Origin: Seonamhaeicola sp. ML3
Lineage (GTDB): Bacteria; Bacteroidota; Bacteroidia; Flavobacteriales; Flavobacteriaceae
Assembly (NCBI RefSeq): GCF_023273855.1
Contig: NZ_CP096884.1
Span: forward strand, 682,001 to 746,000
Length of the DNA stretch: 64,000 nt
Direction: 5' to 3'
The notes beneath the pieces were generated by a model, which had not been told where the DNA came from, ran no database searches, and saw only the letters and a list, made by a program, of their open reading frames with translations. Positions 10,173 through 24,510 of this stretch are shown piece by piece. The position numbers were made by a program, and so were the translations under genes. Position 1 is the stretch's first letter, and the number at the start of each line of letters is the position of its first letter.

Positions 10173-11656
10173 TAGCTAAAGTATTGTTCCAATTCTGGAA
10201 ATTGATTAAAAGGTTCGATATTAAAAATTTGTTTCAATGCAGTTTGATTATTTAAACCTTGAGACTTAAGCGACTCATACATTAGGGAGGCAACCTCTAT
10301 TGTTCCTTGGTCTAATTCATTATTTGTATCTCTTAACTCATGACACTGTGGCTCTTCACTATGAAACTGAATGATTGACTCAACGGGTATTGTTTCTCCA
10401 ATAATTTTTAAGACAGACTTCATTTCTTTCGTAGAAATAGATTCTTTCTCAAGTAAATTCTTAATAATAGAATGGTCTCGATTTATATAATAGTGTCTAA
10501 CTTCTTCCCTAGTCTTTCTTGCTTTCCAAACAGATTGAAAATCAAACGAACTGATAGTGTCATCGAGCATAATCTGATTACCCCTAAATTTATGGATTGA
10601 ACCTGCCCTAGACCTTGTTAGCTTACCTAATCTTACTAGGTCTTTTCTTATAGTGAATGAAGGTGTTGCAGTTGCTTTTTTAATATCTATTTTCCAATCG
10701 TGATCTAATTTATTTGGAATATCAATTAGGATTCTTGCATTTTTAAAATGTTCATTTTTTGAGAATAAGCCGAGCCAATCACCATGTAGCAATAAGCGGT
10801 TTTGACGGTATATATAAAACCCTTGAAGTTTATACCAATCTTCAGTTTTTGCTTTTTTCCTTTCTTCAATAGTCAATTTCGAAATATGTGGCAAAACATA
10901 ACATTTAACACTAACTTGCCCTTTGTCTAGAGATTCATTTGCAACGAGTTGGCCACCATCAGATTGCTTCATAAATGGGTCCCAAGGTTCTAGCTTATTA
11001 CCGTTTAAATAAATCGCAACCTTTTTTTGTTCCAAATATCTATGAAAAACAAGGCTTAAATGATCTTCTACTGCAGCAAATTCATCGAGAAACACATTCA
11101 TAGCTGCTTCATTATTCTTGTTTGCATTACCGACAAGTCGATCCATCTTTTCCCATATCACTGTTGTACCAGAACTTAATTCCTCTAATTTATTTACTAG
11201 TGATTTATCAGATATATAATCTAATAAGGACCATTTCTTCGTTTTATTTACATAATCTAAATCCCAACAACGATTAATAATCTTATAGCCATCACTTTTA
11301 GAAACAACTGTCAATCTTTTGCACTGAGAGAATGATGAGGTTTTTAGACCTAGTCCAAATCTACCTAAATCATGTTCTTCACGATCATCTTTTGGGTCTC
11401 TACTTCCGGGTGTCATTGCCAATTTTAATTCGCCAAGATTCATTCCCAATCCATCATCAGTGATTGTAACCCATGAATCTGCTCCATCCCACTTGTATTC
11501 AATCCAGATATTTTCTGCTTTAGCAGAAATACTATTATCAATTATATCAGCAATAGCAGTCCTTAAATTATATCCAAAAGCCCGAAAGGTATTAATCATA
11601 GCACTAGCTTCTGGCGGCGTTTCTTCTTGTGAAATATTTTTATAATCTATATCCAT
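10172..11656 (-). CDS. GHKL-type ATPase (MutL/Hsp90/MORC-like) of the Mza-type operon
   Basis: A 494-residue protein with the complete N-terminal GHKL ATP-binding site: IADIIDNSISA (Asp40-Asn41), TDDGLGM (Asp67 to Gly71) and GRFGLGLKTSSFS (98-110). This spacing and the FGLGLKxxxF form are those of the MORC-like group described from restriction-type operons. No zinc finger or C-terminal nuclease is visible, and the last 150 residues are charged and helical. Such ATPases usually act as ATP-driven DNA clamps. The gene is joined to the methyltransferase stop by a TAATG overlap, so the stoichiometry may be fixed by coupled translation. Confidence 0.9.
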   Translation of the reverse strand: MDIDYKNISQEETPPEASAMINTFRAFGYNLRTAIADIIDNSISAKAENIWIEYKWDGADSWVTITDDGLGMNLGELKLAMTPGSRDPKDDREEHDLGRFGLGLKTSSFSQCKRLTVVSKSDGYKIINRCWDLDYVNKTKKWSLLDYISDKSLVNKLEELSSGTTVIWEKMDRLVGNANKNNEAAMNVFLDEFAAVEDHLSLVFHRYLEQKKVAIYLNGNKLEPWDPFMKQSDGGQLVANESLDKGQVSVKCYVLPHISKLTIEERKKAKTEDWYKLQGFYIYRQNRLLLHGDWLGLFSKNEHFKNARILIDIPNKLDHDWKIDIKKATATPSFTIRKDLVRLGKLTRSRAGSIHKFRGNQIMLDDTISSFDFQSVWKARKTREEVRHYYINRDHSIIKNLLEKESISTKEMKSVLKIIGETIPVESIIQFHSEEPQCHELRDTNNELDQGTIEVASLMYESLKSQGLNNQTALKQIFNIEPFNQFPELEQYFS

Positions 11657-13221
11657 TAAGCGTTCTTTTGATTTAAAATATCTGCAACTAATTCAGCTAT
11701 TTGATATGCCAAATAAGGAGGTACAGCGTTACCAACTTGATGGTATTGGGCTGTCCTACTTCCTCTAAATAGGTAATTATCTGGAAACGTTTGGATACGC
11801 GCAGCTTCTCTTACCGTTAAAGATCTGCATTGAGCTGTGTCATAGTGAATAAAATAATGTCCATCTTTAGAAATATGACTTGTAACTGTTGTTGCTGGTT
11901 TGTCTGGAACTTGAACCCTAAATCGATCTGCAAATTTTCCTGAGTCTACATTGGCATGATCCGGTAATAAATCTTTACTGTGCTCAGCATAATCATTTAA
12001 ACGAGGGAATCTTTTGTGTTTCTCAACGTAGAGTCCTGCAAATAAATATCGCATCAAATCTTGGGTAAGATGTGATCTAGACTCATGATTTACAACTCCC
12101 CTTAACCTTTTATCAATGTACCAATCTTTTAAAATATGGTTTCTCGGAATTAAGTTATTAGCTTTAAGGTACTCAGCACCGGTATCTAATTCTATTTCTC
12201 TTGGACCATCGGTAAGTCCATTTAATTCCAATTCCCCCCATACCTTTATCTGTTTAATATTTTTAGACATTTCCTTTAGCCAATTAACGCTTGAGTCAGG
12301 CACATTTTCATATAGTCGCTTAGGTTTACCATTTTTATAAACCTCAGTTGAATGATAGTGGGTAAAACTTCTATTTAAGCCACTTCTCACTTTTGGCAAA
12401 TTGTCAATTACCGATTTTAACGTAACTTCTTTCTTCTCTTTTAAATATTCTCCATTATGACTAAAATCTTTTCTAACCCCTAAAAGAATTACCCTATGAC
12501 GTTTTTGAGGCACACCATACTTCTCTGACTTTATTAGAAAATCTGAATCTTTTGCAATTGGTTTAACCAATGAATGTATTTCGTAACTGTTACCAACTTT
12601 TAAATCTCGTTTCATCCAATCAAAAACTTTTTCCCCATCTATCTTTGCAGAAAGAAGACCTTTGACATTTTCCATAACAAAAACGGCCGGCTTATGTTTT
12701 TTAATGATTCTTAGGTATTCTTCATACAAGTATACCCTGTGATCTTCTTTATAAATACCTCCAACTCTTGACCTTCCTACATTAGAATAGGCTTGACATG
12801 GCGGACCACCTATTAACACCCAATTCTTCCTGTTACTTAATTGGGAATTAATTATTTTATCCACCTTTTTTGAGGGCCAATTTTCACCTCCCAATTCAAT
12901 TAATCTTGCTTCTTTTTTTGCTAAAACTCCCTCCTCATACTTATCTAATATTTCTTCTATAAATGATTCTCTTTTTATTAAGTCTGGTTCCCTTAGAGCT
13001 CTATAGTAATCTTCAGGAACTCTCTTATTATTCTTAATAAATTGCCTAAAAAAACTTCTAAAGGTTAAAGTTTTATGCGCGTTTTCCTCTTTCTCTATAG
13101 AAAGTTTAATATCAAAAACATTTTCCCTATCATTATCCTTTAGAGACATAAAACCTTCACCAAGTCCTCCAGGGCCGGCAAACAAGTCAATTATTGGAAT
13201 TTTGCTATTAATTTTCATCAT
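11656..13221 (-). CDS. DNA (cytosine-5) methyltransferase, first gene of the Mza-type operon
   Basis: A 521-residue Dcm-type C5-methyltransferase. Motif I is DLFAGPGGLGEGF (12-24), motif IV is GGPPCQAYSNVGRSR with the catalytic Cys142, motif VI is MENVKGLL (about 183-190), motif VIII is QKRHRVILLG, and the C-terminal motifs IX/X are RSLTVREAARIQTFPD and QVGNAVPP. An insert of about 80 residues between motifs I and IV makes it longer than simple type II enzymes. It presumably marks host DNA for the downstream ATPase/nuclease proteins. The target recognition sequence cannot be read from the sequence. Confidence 0.95.
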   Translation of the reverse strand: MMKINSKIPIIDLFAGPGGLGEGFMSLKDNDRENVFDIKLSIEKEENAHKTLTFRSFFRQFIKNNKRVPEDYYRALREPDLIKRESFIEEILDKYEEGVLAKKEARLIELGGENWPSKKVDKIINSQLSNRKNWVLIGGPPCQAYSNVGRSRVGGIYKEDHRVYLYEEYLRIIKKHKPAVFVMENVKGLLSAKIDGEKVFDWMKRDLKVGNSYEIHSLVKPIAKDSDFLIKSEKYGVPQKRHRVILLGVRKDFSHNGEYLKEKKEVTLKSVIDNLPKVRSGLNRSFTHYHSTEVYKNGKPKRLYENVPDSSVNWLKEMSKNIKQIKVWGELELNGLTDGPREIELDTGAEYLKANNLIPRNHILKDWYIDKRLRGVVNHESRSHLTQDLMRYLFAGLYVEKHKRFPRLNDYAEHSKDLLPDHANVDSGKFADRFRVQVPDKPATTVTSHISKDGHYFIHYDTAQCRSLTVREAARIQTFPDNYLFRGSRTAQYHQVGNAVPPYLAYQIAELVADILNQKNA

Positions 13222-13387: not shown

Positions 13388-13759
13388 TTAATTAAAATTA
13401 GGTGCGCACTTTAAATTATCATTATAAGGTCGAATGTATTTCCAAAACGCTTTACCAGCAATATCTAAATAATTCATAGAATAATACAATTTGGCTTTCG
13501 AACCTACCTGATAAATGTATTCAGAACATTTATATGAATAATCTCTTTTAAAACACACAATAGCAAAATGATATGTCCGATAATCAATATATACATCATA
13601 AAATGTCACCTTAGAAATTGCGTCACTAGTATAACTTGTATATGCTGTTCCACGACTTTTAGATTTTACAAAGCTTATCATTTCATCACAGGATTGAGCA
13701 CAGGATTCCAAAGAGGACAAAAAGGTGAAAACCACTAAAGGGAGTGAAATTTTCTTCAT
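13388..13759 (-). CDS. Small secreted protein or lipoprotein, KTSC-like
   Basis: A 123-residue protein from the ATG at 13759 (MKKISLPLVVF), which begins a normal signal sequence; an upstream in-frame ATG at 13852 adds 31 residues unlike a signal peptide. Two cysteines follow the hydrophobic stretch (SLESCAQSC) and either could be a lipobox cysteine. The body (SDAISKVTFYD, then TYHFAIVCFKRDYSYKCSEYIYQV, ending SMNYLDIAGKAFWKYIRPYN) is reminiscent of KTSC domains, small beta-rich domains of unknown role, but the match is weak. A TACGG-N4-CCGTA palindrome lies 121 nt upstream, at 13880-13893. Confidence 0.55.
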   Translation of the reverse strand: MKKISLPLVVFTFLSSLESCAQSCDEMISFVKSKSRGTAYTSYTSDAISKVTFYDVYIDYRTYHFAIVCFKRDYSYKCSEYIYQVGSKAKLYYSMNYLDIAGKAFWKYIRPYNDNLKCAPNFN

Positions 13760-13879
13760 GACAGAATTGGGACTTCGATTAAGGTTTAAATATAATTTCA
13801 AACTTGTAGATATTTCATGACATGAATCATAAGCAATAGTTATTGTTCTCAAATTTATAATGGTTTAAAACACCGAGAT

Positions 13880-13918: not shown

Positions 13919-14281
13919 TTAATGCTGATAACACCGACCATTAGCATTTTTGGTCATCCTTTTGCATCTGCTGCCGGATTTTGTTATCCCTATACACCTT
14001 GTAGAGGTAGTATTCTTAGACGAAGGACTATTTACTTTAGCATTGGACAAGTTGTTACGCAATTTTCCTTTACTCCCTTTTTCTGGCTTACAAACCGAAC
14101 ATGCCGAATAACCATATTTCAGTGCCTTTTCCAAGGTTATTTCCTTCTTAGAATATTTTAAATAATGGCATTTACTTTTATGATATTTTTTTCCTGTTTT
14201 AGTTATATAAACAGTTTGAGCCTCGACCTGCATAGAGACTCCTGCAATAAAAACAAAAAGAACAATTCTTATGAATTTCAT
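13919..14281 (-). CDS. Small secreted Cys/His-rich protein with two metal-binding-like motifs
   Basis: A 120-residue protein with a clear signal peptide (cleavage near VEA-QT, residue about 22). The first motif is YHKSKCHYLKYSK followed by ACSVC about 30 residues later, similar to the small zinc-binding region found after secreted nucleases and in Ada-like fingers. The second, at the C-terminus, is CIGITKSGSRCKR followed by GRCYQH, a C-x8-C-x11-C-x2-H arrangement common as a terminal module in Bacteroidota. It is coupled to the thermonuclease-like gene by a TAATG overlap, so the two may act together outside the cytoplasm. No defined function. Confidence 0.7.
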   Translation of the reverse strand: MKFIRIVLFVFIAGVSMQVEAQTVYITKTGKKYHKSKCHYLKYSKKEITLEKALKYGYSACSVCKPEKGSKGKLRNNLSNAKVNSPSSKNTTSTRCIGITKSGSRCKRMTKNANGRCYQH

Positions 14282-14772
14282 TACTTGCTTTTTCTTTTAG
14301 ATGAACGCCATTCCCAAGGAGCCATGGCATGAGGATCCTGCCACAATCCTACTTTATTTTTCCTTGCTTCATCATGCAAATCTTGCAATACAGAATCTTT
14401 AGAATATTTTAAATAATGCCATGCAAATCCATTCTTGAGGAGCTCCTGACTTAAATCTAAGGAATCGTCATATTTTACGAGAGCCACGAGTCTTCCATAA
14501 CGGTCTTTTTTTATAACCTCTAATTTTACTCGTTTATCAAATATTTCTTGAGAGGTAAATTGTTTAGCTTTTTGATAAAAAGGCTGTTTTCTCTCTGGAC
14601 AATCTATGTTTGCTACCCTTACCCGAACGAGTGTAGAATCTTGAGTTAATAATTTAAATGTGTCCCCGTCTGTAATCGCAACTGTCTTTCCTTCTATATG
14701 CTCTATTGTATAATATGAACTGGCATTAACTAAAAATAAAACCGATAAAAATGTTAAAGCTACTTTTTTCAA
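14281..14772 (-). CDS. Secreted thermonuclease-family (SNase-like) nuclease
   Basis: A 163-residue protein with an N-terminal signal sequence (MKKVALTFLSVLFLVNASS). The staphylococcal-nuclease fold is recognisable: DGDTFKLL, VRVRVANIDCPE (catalytic Arg and Glu region), FDKRVKLEVIKKDRYGRLVALV (second catalytic Arg) and the terminal GLWQDPHAMAPWEWR, typical of the family. All expected catalytic positions appear present, so it is probably an active Ca2+-dependent nuclease of the envelope or outside. It follows the repeat lipoprotein gene after 5 nt and overlaps the next gene by 1 nt. Confidence 0.9.
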   Translation of the reverse strand: MKKVALTFLSVLFLVNASSYYTIEHIEGKTVAITDGDTFKLLTQDSTLVRVRVANIDCPERKQPFYQKAKQFTSQEIFDKRVKLEVIKKDRYGRLVALVKYDDSLDLSQELLKNGFAWHYLKYSKDSVLQDLHDEARKNKVGLWQDPHAMAPWEWRSSKRKSK

Positions 14773-14777
14773 AATTC

Positions 14778-15701
14778 CTAATTTGAAGATATATAATAAG
14801 TACTTGAATATTCGCCGTGTAAGTTTTCTACACCTGCAAAATTCCTGACTCCAGCGGCGTTTACAGAAGCCGTAACTTTATAAACACCACTTTTAAACTT
14901 CACTGACTCTAATGAGCCTGGTGAAATATTTATTTTTCTCACCTCGGGTCCGCTATATCTTAAGGTTAAAGTGTATCTGGTATCATTAGTTATTTGGATT
15001 GTAGAAACCTCATAGTTCTTAGTCCCTGTCAATTGAGAAGGGGGTATTTCACCATACTCCCCAGAAAATATTTCTTCAATTTCCAAAACAACAATGTTCT
15101 TTGTGATTTGTTCCTTTTCTGGGTGATTTGGATAATCATTTAAAAATTTCTTCCACGTTTTAGAATCATTTACCGCTTGGGCATTCAAATAAGCATTTCG
15201 CTTATTTTTTTCTTTCAACTCAACTAATCTCTCATTGGCAAGATCCGCGTGAGCATTAAACCCTTGAGAATTGAGATAATCTTCTAATTCTTTTATGCTA
15301 TTAGAATCACTAATGATATCCTCTATTTTCTTATTAGCAATTACTCTCACATCTACATCACTCACATTTTCAACTAGCACCTTTATTGTATCTATGCTTT
15401 GGGAATTATTAATTCGTTTTATCAACAGCTTTAAATTAAGATTCTCCAATATACTATTGGCTTCAACAACTTCCTGGTATGTCCCAAAGTTATTAATGAT
15501 TATAATCAATTTATCCTTAGCCTCCTCATACCTTCCTTTTTCAATTAGAACCCTTGAAAGAGTTAACAACTCCCTCACACTGTCCTGCTCTTTTTTCAAT
15601 AATTCATCAGTATTAAACCGTTCAATCTTATTGCCCTGTTTGCAAGAGACAGTTAACGACAATACCACTAGTAAAACTTTAAAAAATATTAAACACCTCA
15701 T
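14778..15701 (-). CDS. Lipoprotein with helical repeats and C-terminal beta domain, unknown function
   Basis: A 307-residue protein from the ATG at 15701 (MRCLIFFK); the lipobox LTVSC puts the lipid on Cys20. The middle (about 30-205) is made of short helix pairs, including SRVLIEKGRYEEAKDKLI, which is TPR-like. The last 90 residues look beta-rich (YEVSTIQITNDTRYTLTLRYSG, ending in YSSTYYISSN). The gene overlaps the previous gene end by 23 nt and belongs to the envelope operon. An upstream in-frame ATG at 15725 would spoil the signal sequence. I do not recognise a named family. Confidence 0.7.
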   Translation of the reverse strand: MRCLIFFKVLLVVLSLTVSCKQGNKIERFNTDELLKKEQDSVRELLTLSRVLIEKGRYEEAKDKLIIIINNFGTYQEVVEANSILENLNLKLLIKRINNSQSIDTIKVLVENVSDVDVRVIANKKIEDIISDSNSIKELEDYLNSQGFNAHADLANERLVELKEKNKRNAYLNAQAVNDSKTWKKFLNDYPNHPEKEQITKNIVVLEIEEIFSGEYGEIPPSQLTGTKNYEVSTIQITNDTRYTLTLRYSGPEVRKINISPGSLESVKFKSGVYKVTASVNAAGVRNFAGVENLHGEYSSTYYISSN

Positions 15702-16143
15702 TCTTTGAAATTTGAATATACACAAAGTTGAACAACATAACGATAATCGAATTTAAGCATAGCCAGATGATGGAAAAAATTATAGAGTTGACCAACCTTA
15801 AACCTATTTTCATTACAAATAATGTAATTAAATAAGAAGCTAATAAAGTGCAGGCATTAACTATTAGCACCACAGATGACCAACTTAAATAACTCATAAA
15901 ACCATGGTCACCTCCTAATTTGAATGTCACCATATTTATTAGGGTGTCAAACAAAATAAAATTGGATAACAAAAAACTAGTATTCAAAGAAATTAAATAC
16001 GGTACCTTAGACTTAATTTCTTCTTCATTTAAGCTTTTGCTTTTTAAACCGCCAAAAAGTAAAAATCTATTTGCCAAAATTAAGGTCACTAAAAAATATA
16101 CAAGTATTAATAACCCTAAAACATAATAACTATCTTGATTCAT
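15679..16143 (-). CDS. Four-helix membrane protein, unknown
   Basis: A 154-residue protein from the ATG at 16143 (MNQDSYYVLG), 5 nt after the preceding stop; an ATG at 16170 would overlap that gene. Hydrophobic segments lie at about residues 7-27, 50-68, 80-105 and 118-142 and cover most of the chain, so it is an integral inner-membrane protein with short loops. It has no conserved motif I can name. Its place between the transglutaminase-like membrane protein and the repeat lipoprotein suggests that it is a structural partner of them. Confidence 0.65.
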   Translation of the reverse strand: MNQDSYYVLGLLILVYFLVTLILANRFLLFGGLKSKSLNEEEIKSKVPYLISLNTSFLLSNFILFDTLINMVTFKLGGDHGFMSYLSWSSVVLIVNACTLLASYLITLFVMKIGLRLVNSIIFSIIWLCLNSIIVMLFNFVYIQISKNEVFNIF

Positions 16144-16148
16144 AATGA

Positions 16149-17969
16149 TTAATTTAAATTCATATTCCAATATCTTACATCACTTATTTCTTTTGGTATT
16201 TTACCAACTTTAAAACCCATTGAAGTAGTTTCCCATAAGTAATACTTTTTCTGTCCATATTTCTTAAACACCCCTAAATCTCTATCAATCTTACCAAATG
16301 ATATTCCTAAAACAGAATGCTGGTATACCTCACTACCAAAAATTGCAACATCATACCCAAATTGCTTGAGTAAGGAATAAAGAAACAATGTTCTAGTATC
16401 GCAATCACCTTTAATATCCTTCAAAAATTCTGAAGGAGATTTGATTCCAAACTTAACATACCCTTGACAAGGGTTATTAAGCAACAATTCTCTCATTGAC
16501 TGATCTCTATAATCATAAGGGTTACAACTATCATCTAATATTGCATAATAGGGAATACTTTGTACCATACTCACCATTACCATAGGAAAATCGTAGCGTG
16601 AAATATTATTTCTCACTCTAATTGAATCCAATGAATTGACAACATGATAAAGGGACTCATTAGAAGCCTGATTTAATCTTTTTAAAATCAAACTATAATC
16701 AGCTTCAGACCTCATACCAGGTAAGGTTTGTTTTAAATTTTGTTCATAAGCTACAAAATCACTATTCACCCTAAGATCAGTCTCATACTCATTACTTTTA
16801 TAATCCTTCCACTTTATATGGTGAACATAATCTTTAGTTGAATTTTCACGCTCTTCTACCTCGGTATCCGGAATAGTTCTAACCTCGTTAACATCTGGCA
16901 AACCTGATTTGATTCCTGAAATGAAATTAAATAAACTGAATCCAATGAAAAGAAAGAAAACAACGTTAAACAATACTCTGAAAAAGCTAAGTAAGTTAAT
17001 TCTGCTTGAAAGAAAAGACCCCCCAAAAAAGAAAAGTAATACAAGCCCCAAATATAACAGGCCTAAACCAAATGCCTTGATCAAAGCTAAAACGGATACT
17101 ATAACAATTAAGCCATAAAACAAATATCCGATTATGGTAAAAACAACAGATATTAAATCTCCAAAACCTCCCCATGCACTTCTCCCTCTATGTAAGTGCC
17201 TGTCACGTATTTTGCCTGACCTAGATTCGGGGTTCAACACATTCTTCCAATATTTTTTTGAAGACGCATTTCTTAAAACGTCATTAAAACCATTCTTAAA
17301 TTGACTACCTTCATTTAATTTGACAAAATTAGCTTGAAATTTATAATCCTTATCTATTGTAATCTCCAATTCATTAGAAACAACTCTTTCAAAATCTTCA
17401 TCCCACCCAACAAAGCTAGAATTCTTATCTGGTAGAGCCGTAATCTTCACCTTTTCTCCTATTTCGTATAAATCTTTCTTTGGTTCAATTAAGATTTTGC
17501 CTGGCCCCTTAACCTCATCAAACAACTCATAAAACGTAACCTTTTGAATTTCTGTCCTAACCTTTTTAATTAGCCCATAACCTTCCAAAGTCAAAGTAGA
17601 AAAAATAACAGCACCATCTTTAATTGAGTTCTTCCTCTCTACCCTCAAATATCCATTCTCTGAAACATATTTGTCATTGCAAATAATTTTATCAAATTTA
17701 ACACTGTACCCCTTTGCTGAATCATCAGACAAATAGACTACGGTCTCCTCAGGTAAATCCAACCCAAAAACCCTATTCTTTTTTATTCCACTAGGTATGT
17801 TAGGCGCATTATATTTCCTTAAAACATTAAACTTGACGGACAATACATCCCTAACATCAAATTCCTCATTGAAACCATCATTAATTTTCTTACCTGACAC
17901 CTTCAGCTCAAGAATGCCAGAGACATAATGAAAGTCCTCAAAATCTATATTAACTTCAATTACCTTCAT
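16149..17969 (-). CDS. Membrane protein with InlB-type repeat and C-terminal transglutaminase-like domain
   Basis: A 606-residue protein with an unusual layout: a beta-rich N-terminal region (1-150); a divergent InlB B-repeat/Listeria-Bacteroides-type module (about 155-217: GKILIEPKKDLYEIGEKVKI, FVGWD, FQANF); three or four hydrophobic segments (about 271-352); and a C-terminal papain-like transglutaminase domain (about 430-606). The last holds GDCDTRT (Cys523), YQHSVLGI (His551) and YLWETTS (Glu580 region), in the order of the Cys-His-Asp/Glu triad. I infer a membrane-bound peptidase or cross-linking enzyme. It overlaps the upstream DUF4407-like gene by 14 nt. The family of the whole protein is unknown to me. 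Confidence 0.7.
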   Translation of the reverse strand: MKVIEVNIDFEDFHYVSGILELKVSGKKINDGFNEEFDVRDVLSVKFNVLRKYNAPNIPSGIKKNRVFGLDLPEETVVYLSDDSAKGYSVKFDKIICNDKYVSENGYLRVERKNSIKDGAVIFSTLTLEGYGLIKKVRTEIQKVTFYELFDEVKGPGKILIEPKKDLYEIGEKVKITALPDKNSSFVGWDEDFERVVSNELEITIDKDYKFQANFVKLNEGSQFKNGFNDVLRNASSKKYWKNVLNPESRSGKIRDRHLHRGRSAWGGFGDLISVVFTIIGYLFYGLIVIVSVLALIKAFGLGLLYLGLVLLFFFGGSFLSSRINLLSFFRVLFNVVFFLFIGFSLFNFISGIKSGLPDVNEVRTIPDTEVEERENSTKDYVHHIKWKDYKSNEYETDLRVNSDFVAYEQNLKQTLPGMRSEADYSLILKRLNQASNESLYHVVNSLDSIRVRNNISRYDFPMVMVSMVQSIPYYAILDDSCNPYDYRDQSMRELLLNNPCQGYVKFGIKSPSEFLKDIKGDCDTRTLFLYSLLKQFGYDVAIFGSEVYQHSVLGISFGKIDRDLGVFKKYGQKKYYLWETTSMGFKVGKIPKEISDVRYWNMNLN

Positions 17970-18897
17970 CGAGAAGCCATTTAGTAAATTCTTGCTCTGT
18001 TCCCAATTTAGGTTTGTCTATTTTGATAGTGTTATAAGGTGGGTCCTTGTAAGCAGTGGTATATTGCAAATTGAATTCGGGATATTTTTTCTTCAAGATA
18101 TTGTTATAATCCAATAGGAATTGCTGGTAAGTCCGCTCTATTAGGTTTCTTTGAATTTTTGTTTTATTCCTATAGTAATTATCGTCAAAATCAATTCTTA
18201 GTTTTAGATAAAAAGGCAAAGAAAAAATCACAACAAACAGTATCGAAAAAGGCCAAATATAGATAAGATTCCTATCCATTAGAATCATCTTTTCAATAAA
18301 AAAATTTCTTGAATATTGATAATCAATAAATTGGTTTAAGGCCACCTCCTTCTCCAATTTATATTTAGTTATTATAGATTTTGGATTCTCTTTAGAATAT
18401 TTAATTTCCTCCCTAGCTTTTAATGAAAAATCAAGATTTAAACTTTTACTTTTTTCATGGATAGATTCAACAATTTTTTCATTCATTAAATCATCAATTT
18501 GGCCTGAAAACAGGTAATATTCAATAGGCTGAGAAGCTAACAAACCTAAAATAAAAATAAATCCAAACCTAAGTAAATAAGATGTTGTAATTTCTATTTT
18601 CTTTCCTTTTTTATGGGGAAGAACATCCTTGGTTAAGGTATATTGGATAAACAAATAAAGAAACATTACTAAAACGGAAGTATAAACCCCTATTAAAAGC
18701 CCAATATAATAAGATTCTAATAGCTCATAGACGCCGTACGAAACACTAACAAAAGTCGCAATCATCACAACAAGAACCACAAGACCAATTAAACTAAATC
18801 TAACCCGAACATCCCTATTACAATTATTAAGTATTTCAGAATCTTCCCCTGCAAACCACCAAAGAAATTTATTGTATTCGAAAAACCTTTTAACCAT
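17956..18897 (-). CDS. DUF4407-like membrane protein (second of two)
   Basis: A 313-residue protein. It opens with FLWWFAGEDSEILNNC, the same aromatic-GxD opening as the next gene upstream, then has hydrophobic segments at about 31-55, 62-88, 107-126 and 211-230. The region between segments three and four is a charged helix (about 135-195), shorter than in its neighbour. The layout (two helices, a third with SQPIEYYLF, coiled coil, last helix) is that of DUF4407 proteins, whose role is unknown. It starts 5 nt after the first DUF4407 gene ends, so the two probably form a pair by duplication and divergence. Confidence 0.7.
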   Translation of the reverse strand: MVKRFFEYNKFLWWFAGEDSEILNNCNRDVRVRFSLIGLVVLVVMIATFVSVSYGVYELLESYYIGLLIGVYTSVLVMFLYLFIQYTLTKDVLPHKKGKKIEITTSYLLRFGFIFILGLLASQPIEYYLFSGQIDDLMNEKIVESIHEKSKSLNLDFSLKAREEIKYSKENPKSIITKYKLEKEVALNQFIDYQYSRNFFIEKMILMDRNLIYIWPFSILFVVIFSLPFYLKLRIDFDDNYYRNKTKIQRNLIERTYQQFLLDYNNILKKKYPEFNLQYTTAYKDPPYNTIKIDKPKLGTEQEFTKWLLDEGN

Positions 18898-18902
18898 ATT
18901 TA

Positions 18903-20180
18903 TTACGAATATTTAATAAAGTCTTCAGGGTTTTCATCTATTTTTCTTTTCTCAGATTCTTCAAACTTTTCGATAGCATATTTGGTTATCCGCATCTGAG
19001 CATCATGAAATTCCTTTTGTTCATTAATAAGCTTTTCCGCTTTTAAGAACCTAACTAATTCTCTTTGCACCCCTTCTTTATCCTCATAATAATCTTCCTC
19101 AATATATACTCCATTATTTGCCAGTTCTAAGGACTTATAATTTTCAGACATATAATCGTATGGAGATTTAATAAGCATTAGTTTAAAAAATATTGGCGTT
19201 AATTCAATTGCCAAAAACAATAGTGTTAAGAACCATGATACAGTAGGGTATTCTTCCTCAGCTATTGTTATGCGCTCAGCAAGACCATCAAGTCCAGACA
19301 AGCTAAAACTCAAATTGTCAATTTCTTTATTTTTCTCATCAATATAGCCCTTGATTTCATTATTCAATTCTGTAATTAGAGGCTCCAAATTGGAACGCAT
19401 TTTATCCCTTTCTTTCTGGCGATCCTGCATAATTAAATCCAGTCTTTTCGCCTGAGGACCATACCCTCTATTACCTTCCTGAGTCATCTCTGCATTCAAA
19501 TTCATTTCGGCTTGAGTTAGGGCATCTTCCGCCTTATCAATTTGCTTTTGATAGTCGGCAATTTTAGTGTTTTTTTCTGCTATTCTTGCAGCATATTTGT
19601 CTTCTATACCCTTAATTGCATCTTGTTTAAGCTCTTCCTGTTTTACTTGAAGTTTAGCATCAATTTCACCTTTAAGAATCCTTATTTCTAAAGGTTTTGA
19701 AATGGAGATAGCAATAATACACCCCATTATTATTCTAGGTAAGGCACTTTTAAATTCACCCCATGTTATGGCCTCGGTACCATCCCCCTTACCAGTACTA
19801 GTTACTATAAACCTATCAATATTGTAAATAATTAACCCCCATATGATCGCAAAAACTAGAGCAACTAACATAGTACCTATATCTGTTGATTCAGTAAACC
19901 CAGAGATATTATTAACAGCCGAACTTCCTTCTGCTAATTTCCACAGTTCGGTTACATTTGATTTCTTGGGTTTGAAAATAGTATAAAAGGCATAACCTCC
20001 TGAAAGACCAGCCATTATAGCCGTAGCTATAACAATTCCTCCCAAACAAAAATATTTGATTTGATCACTATATGTTGATTGGCTTAAAATATAGTCATCA
20101 CCTCCAGCAGCTTTCCAAAAAAGCTTCATTACTTTTGATGGTTTTGGTGTTTTGTAAATTAAATTATCCATATTGTTCAA
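18903..20180 (-). CDS. DUF4407 membrane protein (first of two)
   Basis: A 425-residue protein with a DUF4407 opening (KLFWKAAGGDDYILSQ), transmembrane segments at about 47-70, 103-125 and 150-168 (with SISKPLEIRILKGEID at the end of the third), a long coiled coil (about 175-300) that would lie outside the cytoplasm or in the periplasm, and a fourth membrane segment near 315-335 (FLTLLFLAIELTPIFFKLM). This is the standard DUF4407 architecture. The coiled coil has regular EKNTKIADYQKQIDKAE-type heptads. It overlaps the 5' gene by 17 nt. No activity is known; a scaffold or stress-sensor role is only a guess. Confidence 0.85.
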   Translation of the reverse strand: MNNMDNLIYKTPKPSKVMKLFWKAAGGDDYILSQSTYSDQIKYFCLGGIVIATAIMAGLSGGYAFYTIFKPKKSNVTELWKLAEGSSAVNNISGFTESTDIGTMLVALVFAIIWGLIIYNIDRFIVTSTGKGDGTEAITWGEFKSALPRIIMGCIIAISISKPLEIRILKGEIDAKLQVKQEELKQDAIKGIEDKYAARIAEKNTKIADYQKQIDKAEDALTQAEMNLNAEMTQEGNRGYGPQAKRLDLIMQDRQKERDKMRSNLEPLITELNNEIKGYIDEKNKEIDNLSFSLSGLDGLAERITIAEEEYPTVSWFLTLLFLAIELTPIFFKLMLIKSPYDYMSENYKSLELANNGVYIEEDYYEDKEGVQRELVRFLKAEKLINEQKEFHDAQMRITKYAIEKFEESEKRKIDENPEDFIKYS

Positions 20181-20685
20181 TAATATTTTTTAGGTTATAA
20201 TTGGGATTTGTAGAAATAGCTTTTGATTGAAAAACAGCTTTACGGTGAGCATATTTTAATTCCACCACATTGGCATAAGTAATTGTTGAAATATCAATGC
20301 TAGCCTCCTTAGGAATTTCACTAATTAAATATGACCTTATTTTCCTAACATAAAACAGTTCTTTAATTTTCGAAAAACTATTACTCTTAACCGACTTAAA
20401 AATTGGAGAATTAAAATCTATACTATTACTAGGGTTAACTTCAATATATACCTGTTCCTTAAAAAGGATATTGCGAAATTCAATCAAAACCTTATTAGTT
20501 CCTTTCAGGGTTGAAACGAGGTATAAATCCATTTTAGGTACTTTGACACCATTAATTTTTAGGTGGATGGCTCCTACTAAATTTAAACGAAGAGTATACA
20601 GTTGTTTATCGTTTGTTTTGAAGTTACAAACTTGGTAATCAGCCAGATTTGGTTTTAAAAAAACACTAAGAAATCTCCTCATCAT
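20164..20685 (-). CDS. Protein of unknown function, first gene of the envelope operon
   Basis: A 173-residue protein from the ATG at 20685 (MMRRFLSVF); an ATG at 20718 adds 11 residues with no obvious value. It has no signal peptide or membrane segment beyond a weak N-terminal hydrophobic patch. Residues about 20-95 alternate beta-like hydrophobic strands (LYTLRLNLVGAIHLKINGV, then LYLVSTLKGTNKVLIEFRN); the second half is mixed and basic. I recognise no family. A TACGG-N4-CCGTA palindrome lies about 185 nt upstream, within the terminator of the preceding gene. The 17-nt overlap with the DUF4407 gene ties it to the operon. Confidence 0.6.
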   Translation of the reverse strand: MMRRFLSVFLKPNLADYQVCNFKTNDKQLYTLRLNLVGAIHLKINGVKVPKMDLYLVSTLKGTNKVLIEFRNILFKEQVYIEVNPSNSIDFNSPIFKSVKSNSFSKIKELFYVRKIRSYLISEIPKEASIDISTITYANVVELKYAHRKAVFQSKAISTNPNYNLKNIIEQYG

Positions 20686-20854
20686 TGGTTGGTAAATGAG
20701 ACTTAAAAACACTACCAAGAACTACAGTTTTTACGATACACCATTGAAAGATATATATTTCTTTTATCAAAACCAATTCTCACTATTTTTAAAATTTATA
20801 ATCATCAAAAATGACCGCTTCTACTATTGTTTAGCCATTCAAACATAACTACAG

Positions 20855-20892
20855 AAAACAACAAAGCCTTACGGTTTTCCGTAAGGCTTTGT
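20855..20892 (-). terminator. Rho-independent terminator of the PEGA lipoprotein gene; contains palindrome site 2
   Basis: A 14-bp perfect stem (ACAAAGCCTTACGG / CCGTAAGGCTTTGT, 20861-20892) with a 4-base loop; on the minus strand the stem is followed by a T-rich stretch (TTTGTTTTCTG). The top of the stem, 20870-20883, is itself TACGG-TTTT-CCGTA, the palindrome seen at 13880, 21431 and 21611. Confidence 0.85.
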
Positions 20893-20912
20893 TCATGTGG
20901 GTTGGATAACAA

Positions 20913-21371
20913 CTAATTGTTTAAAACAATTACAGTTTCAATAAGCTTTTTATCCGTATTAATAGAAACCTTTTTTATCTCACCATTATCCAAATAATTT
21001 TCTACTGCCACAGATTTTGATTGATTCTCCATATCCACCTTTACATATTTAGTGTCAACTCTTTTTAAGGAACCAGTGAGAGCATCTACACCCCAACCAA
21101 TAATTGACAAACCGTTAAGGATAGATACAAGATTAAAATTACTATCCATAACCACCACCCTTTCCTTGAAGCCATCTAACCTAAAATCAATTCTATCATC
21201 GGCCTTTACCTTTATTTGCGCTGGGGTAACCCCTTTTTCAAAACCGTTAACATAAACTTTAGCTCCAGATGGATTAGATTCAAAAAGAACGTTTCTTTTG
21301 GAACCCGTAAAAATGGAAGCACAACTTGAAAGTGTCAATATTGCAACACTTAATACAATCAATTTTTTCAT
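20913..21371 (-). CDS. PEGA-domain lipoprotein
   Basis: A 152-residue lipoprotein: signal MKKLIVLSVAILTLSSC with the lipid on Cys17. Residues about 28-72 form a PEGA module (VLFESNPSGAKVYVNGFEKGVTPAQIKV, followed by LDGFKERVV), a small beta domain common in surface and envelope proteins. A conserved ILNGLSIIGWGVDALTG stretch follows, resembling the glycine-rich hydrophobic segment of similar small lipoproteins. It is a single-gene unit ending in a strong terminator, with two TACGG-N4-CCGTA palindromes upstream (60 and 240 nt before the start). The role is unknown; placement suggests control by the adjacent two-component system. Confidence 0.8.
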   Translation of the reverse strand: MKKLIVLSVAILTLSSCASIFTGSKRNVLFESNPSGAKVYVNGFEKGVTPAQIKVKADDRIDFRLDGFKERVVVMDSNFNLVSILNGLSIIGWGVDALTGSLKRVDTKYVKVDMENQSKSVAVENYLDNGEIKKVSINTDKKLIETVIVLNN

Positions 21372-21430
21372 TTAAATATTTTTAATAGGTTAATACACTT
21401 CAAACCTACTTTTAAACCAGAGAAGTATTT

Positions 21431-21444
21431 TACGGGCATCCGTA
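21431..21444. promoter_or_regulatory. TACGG-N4-CCGTA palindrome, site 3
   Basis: TACGG-GCAT-CCGTA, centred about 66 nt upstream of the PEGA lipoprotein start, where a transcription-factor site would be expected. It shares all ten fixed bases with sites 1, 2 and 4. Confidence 0.5.
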
Positions 21445-21503
21445 ATGGATTAATAAAAATTAAATACTAATACATATACCACTGATTTACCAAACTGCTA
21501 GAA

Positions 21504-21540
21504 ATAAAAAACCTTCACAATTCAATTGAACCGTGAAGGT
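21504..21540 (-). terminator. Terminator of the two-component operon
   Basis: ACCTTCAC (21511-21518) pairs with GTGAAGGT (21533-21540). Between them TTCAATTGAA is self-complementary, and two G-U pairs complete the hairpin on the minus strand, where it is followed by TTTTTTA. It lies about 95 nt beyond the response regulator stop. Confidence 0.8.
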
Positions 21541-21610
21541 CATGATAATTCTCTCTCTAAAGAATTTATTAATAGCACTACAATAATAAACGTAATTAAG
21601 TCTTCTGCAT

Positions 21611-21624
21611 TACGGGATTCCGTA
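21611..21624. promoter_or_regulatory. TACGG-N4-CCGTA palindrome, site 4
   Basis: TACGG-GATT-CCGTA, 10 nt past the stop of the response regulator gene and about 240 nt upstream of the PEGA gene. Confidence 0.45.
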
Positions 21625-21634
21625 TAACAAAGTT

Positions 21635-22300
21635 TTAAATGAGACCGATATCTTTTGTGATTGCAACTAAATGTATGGCGTTATTTGCTTGAAATTGAAT
21701 CTTAAGCTTATTCAGGCGTTTTTCGATGGAACTTAAACTACTCGGCTTTAAATCCTTAGCCTTTAATATCTGACTAATTTCTTCTTGTGAATCTCCCTTA
21801 GCAAGATGTTCGAGTAATAACACATCAAAGTCATCAATTTCCATTTTTGATTTCCGTTTCAATGCTGGGCTGACCTGTTCTGAAAAAAATGTATCATTAT
21901 TGTAAACTACTTGAACTGCTTTAGTAAGTTCATCCAATCCCTTTCTGCCCTTGCACACATATGCATTAATTTTATATGATTCCACGAGCCTTCGAACCAT
22001 TTGTATGCGATCTTCAATGGAATAAACAATTATTTTCAAATTTGGATATTCATTTCTTAAAGCTTTAACAAGATCTTCTCCAGAGGTGTATTTTTGCTCC
22101 CTATGATCCTTCTTAAAAGATAAATCGGTTATCAGTAAATCATAAGGATCCATATCAAAAGAACCTTTTTTAATTCTTAAATAAGCGTCATCACAATATT
22201 CAACTCTTTCTACATTTAGTATCCCCAAATGTTTTGCAATTGTAATTACTCCCAAATTTATACTTCCCAAATCATCGGCTACCAATACTTTCTTGAACAT
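21635..22300 (-). CDS. NarL/LuxR-type response regulator
   Basis: A 221-residue protein. The N-terminal receiver domain carries the acidic pair Asp9-Asp10 and the phosphoacceptor Asp59 in LLITDLSF, with the later conserved residues at VYSI and a Lys (CKGRKG). The C-terminal part (about 155-221) is a LuxR-type helix-turn-helix of the flavobacterial form (LLLEHLAKGDSQEEISQ, then SSLSSIEKRLNKLKIQF). It follows its kinase gene after 2 nt. DNA-binding dimers of this family recognise short inverted repeats, so the TACGG-N4-CCGTA palindromes on its downstream side and further along are natural candidate targets (inference). Confidence 0.92.
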   Translation of the reverse strand: MFKKVLVADDLGSINLGVITIAKHLGILNVERVEYCDDAYLRIKKGSFDMDPYDLLITDLSFKKDHREQKYTSGEDLVKALRNEYPNLKIIVYSIEDRIQMVRRLVESYKINAYVCKGRKGLDELTKAVQVVYNNDTFFSEQVSPALKRKSKMEIDDFDVLLLEHLAKGDSQEEISQILKAKDLKPSSLSSIEKRLNKLKIQFQANNAIHLVAITKDIGLI

Positions 22301-22302
22301 AA

Positions 22303-23961
22303 CTATATCATTATTTTAGCTCTGAAACCGTTGCCAGGTTCCGATTCAAAAGTAATAGTTCCCTTCAAGGTCCGAATACGGTTTTCCGTATTATGAAGTC
22401 CATTCCGCTTTTTAATATTACAACCAATGCCATTATCAGAATAATGAATCAGCACCTTCTCGTTAGATTTCTCAAATGCAAGAACAACCAGGGAGGCTTT
22501 ACTGTGCTTTCTCATATTTGTCATTAATTCTTGCAAAACACGGTAAAGTGCGGTTTTCTTTAATTTACCAATTGAGGACCATTTAATAGTTGTTAAACTT
22601 TTTGTTATAACCCTTATATTTTCAGTATTGTAATTTTGTAATAAATCGGATAATATTTCTCCAAAATCTTCATCAAAATCGATAGATTCGTTTTCTTTGG
22701 AAATATCCCTGGTCTTAATATAAATATGCTCTAGGTCATCAAGCAAATCGTCTCCTTTACTTTTATATTTGGTCATCACATGATATACGTCATTAGCAAC
22801 CTCATCATGAATCTTTTTGGAGATTCTCTTTTCTGTTATATATACTTGCTGGAGATTATCCTTTTTATGCCTTGCCCTTAAATAGAAATATAGAAACACT
22901 GAGGACAACAAAACGAACAGTCCACCAAATAAATATACCAGCGTTTTTTTCTTTTGTTTTTCATTTTGAATCTGGGCATCCTTTAATCGACCCTCACTTT
23001 CCGCAATATTGTATTTAATAGCGGCATATTTGTTCTTCCTTTGTTGATCTTCTAGGTCTATTTTGGATTTTAAATCGAGGTACTTTTCCAGTAGTTCATA
23101 TTTGCCTAGTTTCAGGTTCAGCTTCATTGCTTCCAATTGGTACAATGGACTATCCAAATCATTAGCTATTTTAAGGGCATTTTCAGCATAATACCTGGCC
23201 TTTTTATTATTTCCTACTTGCTCGTAAAAATTTGACAAATGCCTGTAACTAGAAAACAGGCCAGTTTCATCCTTTAACTTATCTCTTATACCCAAAGCCA
23301 TTTGCATGTGTTCAATACCCTCAGTAATATTTAACTTTGATTGATAAAATCCCAGGTTATCAATATAATTAGCTTTGATATAAGAATCCTTAAGTTTTAA
23401 TGCCTCCTCATAAAATGGTTTTAATAAGGTAATAGCCCCCTGAAAACTACCTCGGTCAGCATCTATATTTGCGGTATTGGTGACAATTGCAATTTTATCG
23501 ATTGTTTCGGAACTTAAATCCATAGCCTGACCATAAAACCTAAGTGCATTATCATAATCCCCTATTTTCCTGTAGATCATACCCAATTGATTGGTTAAAC
23601 GCTCTCGAGCAGCATCACCTTCAGGATTTGAATTTTTCTTTTTTAAATGACTAAGGGCTTTTATAGTTGTTGTTTCGCTTTCGCTATAAAAGGCCAGTTT
23701 AAATTGTCCCAACGATACCAATTCCAGATATTTAGCTACCTCTGAACTATCACTTGAAATCAGAGCGTTTTTAGCTTCTTGTTCAAAAAAACCGAGAGCA
23801 TAAATCGTATTGTCTACGTCCTTGATGTTTATTATTGCATTGTAGTAAAATAGCAGACTATCTTGATTGATTTGGCCTGAGGAGGAATCTGTTTTCTGAG
23901 CATTGAGTGCTATAGCCAGAAGCAGGCATAAAAAGAGGAATGAAACTCTTATGTTTTTCAT
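22303..23961 (-). CDS. TPR-containing sensor histidine kinase
   Basis: A 552-residue protein: signal peptide (cleavage near LNA-QK, about 21); an extracytoplasmic region of TPR helices (about 75-330, for example MIYRKIGDYDNALRFYGQA); one transmembrane helix (about 341-361, LVYLFGGLFVLLSSVFLYFY); a HisKA_3-type dimerisation helix with phosphoacceptor His385 in KKIHDEVANDV; and a HATPase_c domain (ELMTNMRKHSKA, HYSDNGIGCN, ESEPGNGFRAKI). It is the typical flavobacterial TPR kinase paired with a LuxR-type regulator, here immediately downstream. It probably senses a protein or envelope signal through the TPR region. One TACGG-N4-CCGTA match (22377-22390) falls inside the coding sequence. Confidence 0.93.
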   Translation of the reverse strand: MKNIRVSFLFLCLLLAIALNAQKTDSSSGQINQDSLLFYYNAIINIKDVDNTIYALGFFEQEAKNALISSDSSEVAKYLELVSLGQFKLAFYSESETTTIKALSHLKKKNSNPEGDAARERLTNQLGMIYRKIGDYDNALRFYGQAMDLSSETIDKIAIVTNTANIDADRGSFQGAITLLKPFYEEALKLKDSYIKANYIDNLGFYQSKLNITEGIEHMQMALGIRDKLKDETGLFSSYRHLSNFYEQVGNNKKARYYAENALKIANDLDSPLYQLEAMKLNLKLGKYELLEKYLDLKSKIDLEDQQRKNKYAAIKYNIAESEGRLKDAQIQNEKQKKKTLVYLFGGLFVLLSSVFLYFYLRARHKKDNLQQVYITEKRISKKIHDEVANDVYHVMTKYKSKGDDLLDDLEHIYIKTRDISKENESIDFDEDFGEILSDLLQNYNTENIRVITKSLTTIKWSSIGKLKKTALYRVLQELMTNMRKHSKASLVVLAFEKSNEKVLIHYSDNGIGCNIKKRNGLHNTENRIRTLKGTITFESEPGNGFRAKIMI

Positions 23962-24000
23962 TCCTCTAAAATAAAAACTATTTTCTTTTAAAAACTATTT

Positions 24001-24168
24001 TTATCCACCTCCTCCAGTTGGTGGTGGCGGTGGTATTGGACTATCATCTCCACAACATGCTACTTCCTCATTTGAACCAGAACTTCCATCATCGTTAGAA
24101 CTTGGCGTGCATGAGAAAACAAACACATTAAGGAAAACCGTAAACGCAAATAACAATATTTTCTTCAT
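24001..24168 (-). CDS. Small Pro/Gly-tailed lipoprotein
   Basis: A 55-residue protein, too short for most gene callers. It starts MKKILLFAFTVFLNVFVFSC, a signal with lipid on Cys20, then a Ser/Asn/Asp-rich linker, a CCG pair, and ends in IPPPPPTGGGG. It lies 39 nt upstream of the kinase gene in the same direction and so probably belongs to the same transcript. Signal, lipobox, stop and spacing all support a real gene. It could be a ligand or accessory factor for the kinase, but nothing in the sequence shows that. Confidence 0.65.
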   Translation of the reverse strand: MKKILLFAFTVFLNVFVFSCTPSSNDDGSSGSNEEVACCGDDSPIPPPPPTGGGG

Positions 24169-24510
24169 TTTGTATTATTTAAAATTGAACACTAGTGTGG
24201 CTGTCCGAACTCGATAATCAGATTCAGATATCATGCAGAACAACTACACGTTAAAGGAGGAGACGTCTCTCCGTTTTGGGAAGTGTCGGAGCGCAGAAGT
24301 AAAGAAGTAATAACACTTCCCGGGGTTATACCACTCTACTTTGCAACTCCTAAATTGAATTAACAAAAAGCTAAAAGCACTTTGTTAATTCTGATACAAA
24401 TGAAAGAAGATTTGGTTTTGAACGTTGGAAATCTCATGGAAACTAAGGGGAAAATAATTTCCATTTATTTTCCTTGGAATTTGTAGTTTTATAACAACTA
24501 AATATTTATA
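24169..24510. other. Gene-free divergent region with inverted repeats
   Basis: This region separates the kinase operon (minus) from the membrane protein gene (plus). It holds GGGAAGTGT (24278-24286) facing ACACTTCCC (24313-24321), a perfect 9-bp inverted repeat over 26 nt; a short palindrome GAGACGTCTC just before; and GGAAAATAA (24449-24457) facing TTATTTTCC (24465-24473) near the plus-strand start. It presumably carries promoters and regulatory sites for both sides. I see no convincing gene. Confidence 0.4.

Follow-up and report, generated by a model that had tools for sequence, protein, structure and literature searches.

In the LapD/LapG system, an inner-membrane protein with a cytosolic input governs a periplasmic cysteine enzyme of the transglutaminase fold, and in the TgpA-type membrane transglutaminases, N-terminal transmembrane (TM) helices are followed by an enzyme domain. 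DUF350 (YjfL) proteins are placed, in the passages of PMC11237479 that deal with them, in PspA-linked operons that also encode lipoproteins and a beta-rich protein predicted to be intracellular. The passages on DUF4407 proteins in the published papers searched give them as table entries. Here we describe an operon of Seonamhaeicola sp. ML3 (Bacteroidota, Flavobacteriaceae) that combines features of all of these. It lies in a stretch of 64,000 nucleotides, referred to below as the window (bases 682001-746000 of contig NZ_CP096884.1, a 3.47-Mb genome in one contig), and its recurrent five-gene core, A-B-C-D-E, encodes two paired DUF4407 membrane proteins, a membrane-bound putative transglutaminase-fold enzyme and a DUF350-related partner, preceded by a small, fast-evolving protein. 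We interpret it as a regulator-controlled, island-borne envelope enzyme system that would act from the inside out, most likely to protect the cell from agents, phages for example, that attack the envelope or pass through it, and we give this interpretation a probability of about 0.45.

The resemblance to LapD/LapG holds in outline, in that D would be a periplasmic cysteine enzyme under inner-membrane control and LapG structures are among its best neighbours in the PDB. The differences are that in D, the enzyme and a membrane input domain form one polypeptide, that no cyclic di-GMP (c-di-GMP) receptor or LapA-type adhesin was found in the eight genes of the operon (A-H) or among the neighbour matches listed (25 of 129 families, from 140 neighbours), and that there was neither a LapG-type Pfam match among the D proteins nor a solved LapG in the profile search. 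The D system may work like LapD/LapG in outline; it is not a member of that family. With the TgpA-type enzymes D shares the order of helices and enzyme domain, and PDB entry 4xz7, titled TGase, which we take to be TgpA, is among its structural neighbours (Z 7.0), but D has an N-terminal beta domain (and in 15 of 59 proteins a J domain), three predicted TM helices and the constant neighbours A, B, C and E. A DUF350 partner, a multi-gene envelope operon, a lipoprotein and a beta-rich protein are likewise traits of the YjfL/DUF350 extended PSP operons, as far as these are treated in PMC11237479, but no PspA, PspC, ATP-grasp or spermidine-synthase match was recognized by Pfam in A-H. What sets this locus apart from the DUF4407 family at large is that two distinct paralogues are paired with an enzyme. 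The adjacent Mza operon, on the same strand, differs in being a known system. The first-pass annotation, made from the letters of the window alone, knew of no system with this set, and we likewise found no described system with this gene set and control in PADLOC or in the published papers searched (preprints not covered). By that measure, the gene set and its control appear to be new, and the function given here is a proposal.

The conserved core and its enzyme

All eight minus-strand open reading frames (ORFs) that had been proposed to form one envelope operon are present, and their junctions agree with the gaps of at most 5 nt and overlaps of 1-23 nt noted before: A and B overlap by 17 nt, B and C are separated by 5 nt, C/D and D/E overlap by 14 and 22 nt, E/F by 23 nt (counted from the ATG of F), F and G are 5 nt apart, and G/H overlap by 1 nt. 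ORFs were called mechanically, so gaps and start distances are approximate. These tight junctions, together with one regulator-type promoter ahead of A and no further one found from there to H, support the proposal that A-H form one transcription unit. A (20164..20718, ATG at 20685) is the first core gene. B (18903..20180) is a long DUF4407 membrane protein with a long coiled-coil hairpin (Pfam E=5.7e-65; model pLDDT 77), followed by C (17956..18897), a second and divergent DUF4407 membrane protein (E=1.6e-13). Both pass the Pfam cut-off of 31.3 bits for PF14362, with 220 and 51.1 bits, which upholds the pairing of DUF4407 proteins claimed earlier. D (16149..17969) has a beta domain, an Ig/InlB-like repeat (a weak match, E=1.9e-4, below the Pfam cut-off), three predicted TM helices and a predicted transglutaminase-fold domain, and E (15679..16170) is a small multi-TM protein of a DUF350-related family, the window copy giving no match to the DUF350 model PF03994.

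By ORF calling and profile searches, A-B-C-D-E recurs in one order, on one strand and nearly without gaps across 82 loci, comprising 80 from one scan of 84,980 species genomes, one further genome and the window. The scan loci are the best 80 of 463 candidates retrieved with an alignment of operon-type DUF4407 proteins, are not independent of one another and, going by their titles, are all from Bacteroidota; L066 was excluded from the counts because its contig is identical to that of L148. Since the arrangement recurs across Bacteroidota, the gene order is not a matter of chance. In the scoring, where the assignment of A, C, D and E drew in part on position and length, 60 loci have a complete A-E (including L147, scored wrongly, as its 104-aa ORF is not E), 10 have A-D and 12 have fewer parts, with D not called in 8 and cut by a contig end in 2. 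The layout is disturbed by extra genes between B and D in L067, a split C in L118 and a gap between C and D in L122. An ORF of 100-250 aa occupies the A position, to which it was assigned by place, in 79 of the 82 loci, and one weak Pfam match was the only one among 78 members. A second DUF4407 ORF was measured beside B in 77 of the 82, and a 79-row alignment of B could be built.

The core is sparsely distributed. Operon-type B was found in 4 of 299 genomes of the same family (G000, G107, G036 and G046; at least 250 bits versus at most 105 for the others), each with a relative of D on the same contig, and in 4 of 395 genomes sampled from the phylum (at least 368 bits versus at most 212). Families are interleaved in a quick tree of B, in which some forks are unresolved and the branches of L076, L067 and L150 are long. 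Because the spread is patchy and the tree mixes families, we take the core to be an accessory system that moves horizontally and occurs in a minority of Bacteroidota, consistent with the accessory setting proposed for it before. No relatives of B were found in the viral contigs or plasmids scanned, at the sensitivity used. A DUF4407 match of any kind occurs in 201 of the 299 same-family genomes, and the four single-DUF4407 loci that were mapped hold one 366-aa gene among unrelated chromosomal genes; the idea that this lone gene is the same thing as the operon was rejected. Another DUF4407 protein (448 aa; L155:7211-12219) stands beside kinase-, PP2C- and vWA-like genes in an arrangement that recalls, by eye, the TerY-P triads. 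For the structure of B, Foldseek gave no match at E<=0.001 and a PDB profile search gave only chance-like or coiled-coil matches; we make no claim on its fold, because its VIA-align rows look like generic helix or coiled-coil matches.

The structural model of D (mean pLDDT 86, pTM 0.51) runs from an N-terminal beta region through the small Ig/InlB-like repeat and three membrane helices (269-300, 303-320 and 327-355) to a C-terminal domain at about 369-606. With residues 370-606 as query, and on a stated VIA-align background of Z 7-8 with scores within 1 counting as tied, the best neighbours include chain E of 4u65, a LapD-orthologue complex entry (Z 8.9, 138 residues, root-mean-square deviation 3.6), and LapG 4fgq (Z 8.6, 133 residues, deviation 3.4), with PNGase, TglA, the pseudomurein endoisopeptidase PeiP and transglutaminases among the further neighbours at Z 7-9. 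The transglutaminase-like part of the window D has no Pfam match, and a PDB profile search with D returned chance-like or coiled-coil matches only. All 59 aligned D proteins, a set selected by presence of the Cys motif, retain Cys523, His551 and Glu580 without exception, and likewise Cys482 and Cys501. The predicted fold and the conserved triad together identify the C-terminal domain as a likely transglutaminase-fold domain, and thereby bear out the earlier description of a membrane enzyme with a Cys-His-Glu triad.

The topology of D can be approached through its fusions. In 15 of the 59 D proteins, the N-terminus carries a J domain (a DnaJ fusion), which suggests that this end of the protein is cytosolic. 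As a J domain should be cytosolic and three TM helices follow, the enzyme domain would be periplasmic, and the D enzyme therefore probably works outside the inner membrane; simple hydropathy gives three helices in 47 of 74 D proteins. The end of D that carries the enzyme domain is exchangeable. In seven loci, D ends in a Cys/His stretch of the form KYH...CRGL..C in place of the enzyme domain; this stretch occurs as well in small proteins that have signal-like N-termini. In L083, L094 and L140, D ends in other tails (TPR-like by eye only), the non-enzyme D of L094 having a weak TgpA_N match (7.6e-4, below cut-off).

The presence of E follows that of the enzyme domain. An E-position gene comes after D in 61 of 61 loci with an enzyme-type D and in 0 of 10 with other D types; two loci in which a contig end cuts D (L123 and L150) and eight without D were uninformative, and L124, which has D in two frames with an E-type gene after it, was set aside in this comparison and counted as enzyme type on the tree, where at least three changes of D type are required. 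A DUF350 match was obtained for 25 of 62 aligned E-position proteins (best 1.3e-13). Solo enzyme genes also occur outside the core in same-family genomes, and in 28 of 28 loci examined (L007-L034, of which L032 is operon-borne), the enzyme gene lies beside an E-family gene. From this joint presence and absence in the core and the side-by-side genes elsewhere, we infer that the enzyme domain and E form one functional pair. The first-pass annotation had overlooked this linkage, the interchangeable end of D and the fusions to J domains, as well as the regulators and promoter boxes discussed below.

A promoter-like element associated with a two-component pair

The unit looks to extend beyond A-H, with a histidine kinase, a response regulator and a PEGA-domain lipoprotein upstream and gene X downstream, all on the minus strand. 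The kinase (22303..23961) has TPR_12 (4.7e-11) and HATPase_c (2e-6) matches and, by eye, a signal-like N-terminus and a TM helix, and the regulator (21635..22300) has a receiver domain and a C-terminal output region (Response_reg 1.8e-6, 28.5 bits, just under cut-off). When 51 core loci with full flanks were compared with 40 random loci, over a range for the regulator of about 10 kb, the kinase family (cluster c3) was present in 25 of the 51, in 23 of them upstream, compared with 3 of the 40, and the regulator family (cluster c4) in 23 of the 51, compared with none of the 40. Both families are mostly upstream of the core and on its strand, by a split that scores ORFs overlapping the core end as upstream and was used for these two families only. 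The lipoprotein (20913..21371) was recognized by a PEGA match (1.5e-6) and, as a lipoprotein, by eye and a weak LPAM_1 match. Upstream of the kinase is a divergent 227-aa gene (24511-25194, plus strand) with no Pfam match, and similar-sized divergent genes lie near the same place in several other loci that carry the regulator.

A repeat search of the regulator region of the window revealed the palindrome TACGGNNNNCCGTA. In the form TACGGN4CCGTA, it has five copies in the 3.47-Mb genome, all within this cluster (13880, 20870, 21431, 21611 and 22377), compared with one copy of the reversed control pattern. Each copy stands 22 bp before TANNTTTG, which we take to be the Bacteroidota -7 element, in four cases perfectly and in one with one mismatch, so that the whole element reads TACGGN4CCGTA-N22-TANNTTTG. 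All five sites are on the minus strand: P1 (22347..22390, ending in TACTTTTG) is before the regulator and inside the 3' end of the kinase gene, P2 (21581..21624, TATTATTG, with the one mismatch) before a short terminator-like stretch, P3 (21401..21444, TAGGTTTG) before the PEGA lipoprotein, P4 (20840..20883, TATGTTTG) before A, and P5 (13850..13893, TAAATTTG) before X. No further perfect composite occurs in the genome besides these four.

The same element recurs with the regulator elsewhere. Under a relaxed rule (at least 9/10 palindrome and 5/6 -7 element positions), 88 composites were found in 38 of 80 core loci and 41 in 14 of 15 regulator loci, compared with 1 in 40 random loci (640 kb); the 15 were hand-picked from 120, and two of their genomes (G107 and G036) have the core elsewhere. 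In the 299 same-family genomes, a perfect composite is present in 82 of the 120 with the regulator (E<=1e-20) versus 4 of the 179 without it (Fisher p 2.7e-38, kinship uncorrected), and the 147 perfect composite sites listed, 98 of them within 20 kb of a regulator gene, compare with three matches to the reversed pattern. Palindromes average 4.07 per genome with the regulator and 0.92 without it (reversed control 3.7 and 2.9). A shared promoter element thus accompanies the regulator, pointing to a two-component regulon. Genes downstream of composites include the regulator itself, HSDR_N-like proteins and small Cys/His proteins, and, by reading of the relaxed-site list, gene A of the core at nine sites. 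The palindrome strings yielded nothing in the published papers searched (preprints not covered).

A different view of the palindrome would make it a recombination, insertion or terminator element that collects cassettes, with the kinase and regulator as passengers. It accounts for the many sites between cargo genes and for P4, whose palindrome is the middle of a perfect 15-bp inverted repeat (20860-20893) that resembles a terminator of the PEGA gene. We nevertheless consider it improbable. Among 58 oriented sites in core loci, TANNTTTG follows at exactly 22 bp in 40 (two have it at other distances and 16 lack an exact element), as it does at the five window sites, one of them mismatched; enrichment is confined to a spacer of 4, other spacer lengths being at background; a site inside the kinase 3' end, about 40-110 bp before the regulator, recurs across loci; and the association with regulator presence is strong.

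P2 also precedes a candidate small RNA of about 65-80 nt (21501-21579, minus strand), with a conserved 5' end (GCTATTAAT) leading to a terminator-like hairpin, and similar elements stand at composite promoters in eight other loci (L125, L217, L218, L219, L220, L223, L224 and L231). Rfam gave no match in 20000-24600, and a covariance model of the candidate had no base-paired positions and gave clear hits to its training sequences alone.

Cargo genes and neighbouring systems

Downstream of E, the operon continues, still on the minus strand, with F (14778..15725, ATG at 15701), a lipoprotein, G (14281..14772), a secreted staphylococcal-nuclease homologue (Pfam SNase E=1.7e-24), and H (13919..14281), a secreted Cys/His protein with a KYH-C motif and a DUF5763-like motif (weak match, E=1.9e-4, below the Pfam cut-off). 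X (13388..13852, likely ATG at 13759), a small protein with a signal-like N-terminus, lies downstream of H; it has relatives in L109 and L119 and is predicted to belong to the same regulon through P5. The first-pass annotation counted lipoprotein, nuclease and Cys/His protein as parts of the complex and called for a gene-neighbourhood check of the co-occurrence of DUF4407 pairs with the transglutaminase-like, lipoprotein and SNase genes. Conserved co-occurrence stood for A-E across the 82 loci and failed for F, G and H. In 13 of the 82 loci, the ORF immediately after E belongs to the F family; 6 of these are the window and its nearest relatives, the others being L090, L095, L098, L121, L131, L132 and L136 (the F profile was iterated, and some F-family ORFs are short). 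An SNase gene directly follows E in few other loci (L110, L119, L124, L125 and L143). In the full-flank comparison, 9 of the 51 core loci have the SNase cluster in their flanks and 8 have the H-like cluster, and none of the 40 random loci has either. Because F, SNase and H-like genes are present in only a minority of core loci, the recurrent machine is A-E and not A-H.

G and H-like proteins also adjoin unrelated systems at regulator loci: in L223 and L217, TerB-like, about 420-aa membrane and vWA-lipoprotein-like genes (all by eye) lead to an SNase gene, and L223 also has an H-like protein. The same families of cargo genes are found in the 15 regulator loci alongside further multi-gene sets, with no core in the stretch. 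G and H as fixed complex parts were rejected, as both travel without the core; by their genomic company, they are cargo common to other systems. This bears on a reading in which the complex exports or activates secreted effectors such as G and H against competitors, with the enzyme maturing them. A secreted nuclease and a Cys/His protein within the transcription unit, and the variable ends of D, would suit such contact antagonism. Given that G and H move without the core, and that A-E contain no clear match to a secretion-apparatus family (weak TrbL matches occur in 2 of 59 D proteins), we regard it as very unlikely.

The defence operon noted earlier beside A-H is Mza (4089-13221, minus strand; MzaB 7.6e-102, MzaC 2.7e-158, MzaD 1.9e-20 and MzaE 5.9e-88, with a cytosine methyltransferase), within which no regulator-type promoter was found. 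G matches the PADLOC SNc+LTD model at 1.2e-10. In L110, a promoter of the same type as P1-P5 stands before a GmrSD restriction gene, and in L080 a weaker site stands before a ThsB-type TIR gene. At L219:7075-16000, a regulator-type promoter precedes a vWA-like lipoprotein gene heading an operon with a tubulin-like gene (both named by eye) and a ZorA-matching MotA/ExbB-type protein, possibly a further system.

Possible roles of the system

Under the envelope-protection interpretation, the TPR domain of the kinase, probably periplasmic, would sense envelope trouble and the promoters would be switched on, the response regulator recognizing the palindrome, which would stand in for the usual -33 element, and activating promoters of the P1-P5 type. 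B and C would form a membrane scaffold with long coiled coils, and D, whose beta domain would face the cytosol and whose transglutaminase-fold domain would face the periplasm, would carry a signal from inside to outside. The activated Cys-His-Glu enzyme may then cleave or cross-link a periplasmic or outer-membrane target, with E, the DUF350-type protein, as an obligate membrane partner of D serving as gate or anchor. F, G, H and X would be cargo of one regulon.

Defence appears the likeliest role, and we favour it because of the patchy spread, the company found under the same promoter type and the adjoining Mza operon. The main rival is envelope stress or repair, in which a regulated complex mends or remodels peptidoglycan, outer-membrane proteins or lipoproteins in the manner of PspA/YjfL-type operons, with no role against phage. 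Its attractions are the DUF350 (YjfL) proteins that PMC11237479, in the part concerned with them, places in PspA-linked operons beside lipoproteins and a beta-rich protein, the J-domain fusions, the TPR-type histidine kinase, and the enzyme-E pair outside the core, which has neighbours in common across three mapped loci. It sits less easily with the patchy distribution and the family-mixing B tree, with the restriction- and Zorya-like genes that this type of locus also holds under the same promoter type, and with the lack of a PspA or PspC match in A-H. It stays a serious rival, because the enrichment of PADLOC matches among the neighbours is modest and A-E have no significant PADLOC match, and we hold it as a real if tentative possibility.

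Several observations weigh against the interpretation of a regulated, inside-out protective system, and some of them concern its assignment to defence. With the PADLOC 2.0.0 models, A, C, D and E have no match, and the coiled coil of B has a weak one (E 0.046). Among 140 core neighbours, the PADLOC matches listed (25 of 101 families) comprise three type I methyltransferases, two HEC-05, two PDC-M55C and single matches, compared with nine families of one member each in 130 random ORFs, a modest enrichment. Others concern regulation: the regulator is absent within about 10 kb in 28 of 51 core loci, and lies about 28 kb from the core in G107 and on another contig in G036; the DNA scanned lacks a composite site in 42 of 80 core loci; composite matches with two mismatches occur in the genome about as often as those of the control; and the palindrome by itself shows no excess over its reversed control (ratio 1.10 with the regulator and 0.32 without it). 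Still others concern the enzyme and its orientation: the best VIA-align score of D is only slightly above background, Foldseek gave D no match at E<=0.001, hydropathy predicts two TM helices in 21 of the 74 D proteins, which would make the enzyme cytosolic, and the membrane orientation of B is ambiguous by charge.

A broader idea, which we regard as doubtful at this point, is that the regulator locus is a two-component-switched defence locus of Bacteroidota in which interchangeable immune modules share one promoter code, the DUF4407-transglutaminase-DUF350 set being a new module that would sense intrusion inside and respond with a periplasmic cysteine enzyme, its outer domain swappable for a metal-binding-like domain. 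Should the regulator locus indeed serve defence, it would clearly exemplify immune modules governed by a common sensor and regulator, with a bearing on when immunity is switched on. The core itself is a defined and testable system, with five genes, a catalytic residue, a partner gene that tracks the enzyme, and a promoter code that names a likely regulator and its targets, and it provides DUF4407 and DUF350, both still of unknown function in Pfam, with a shared context.

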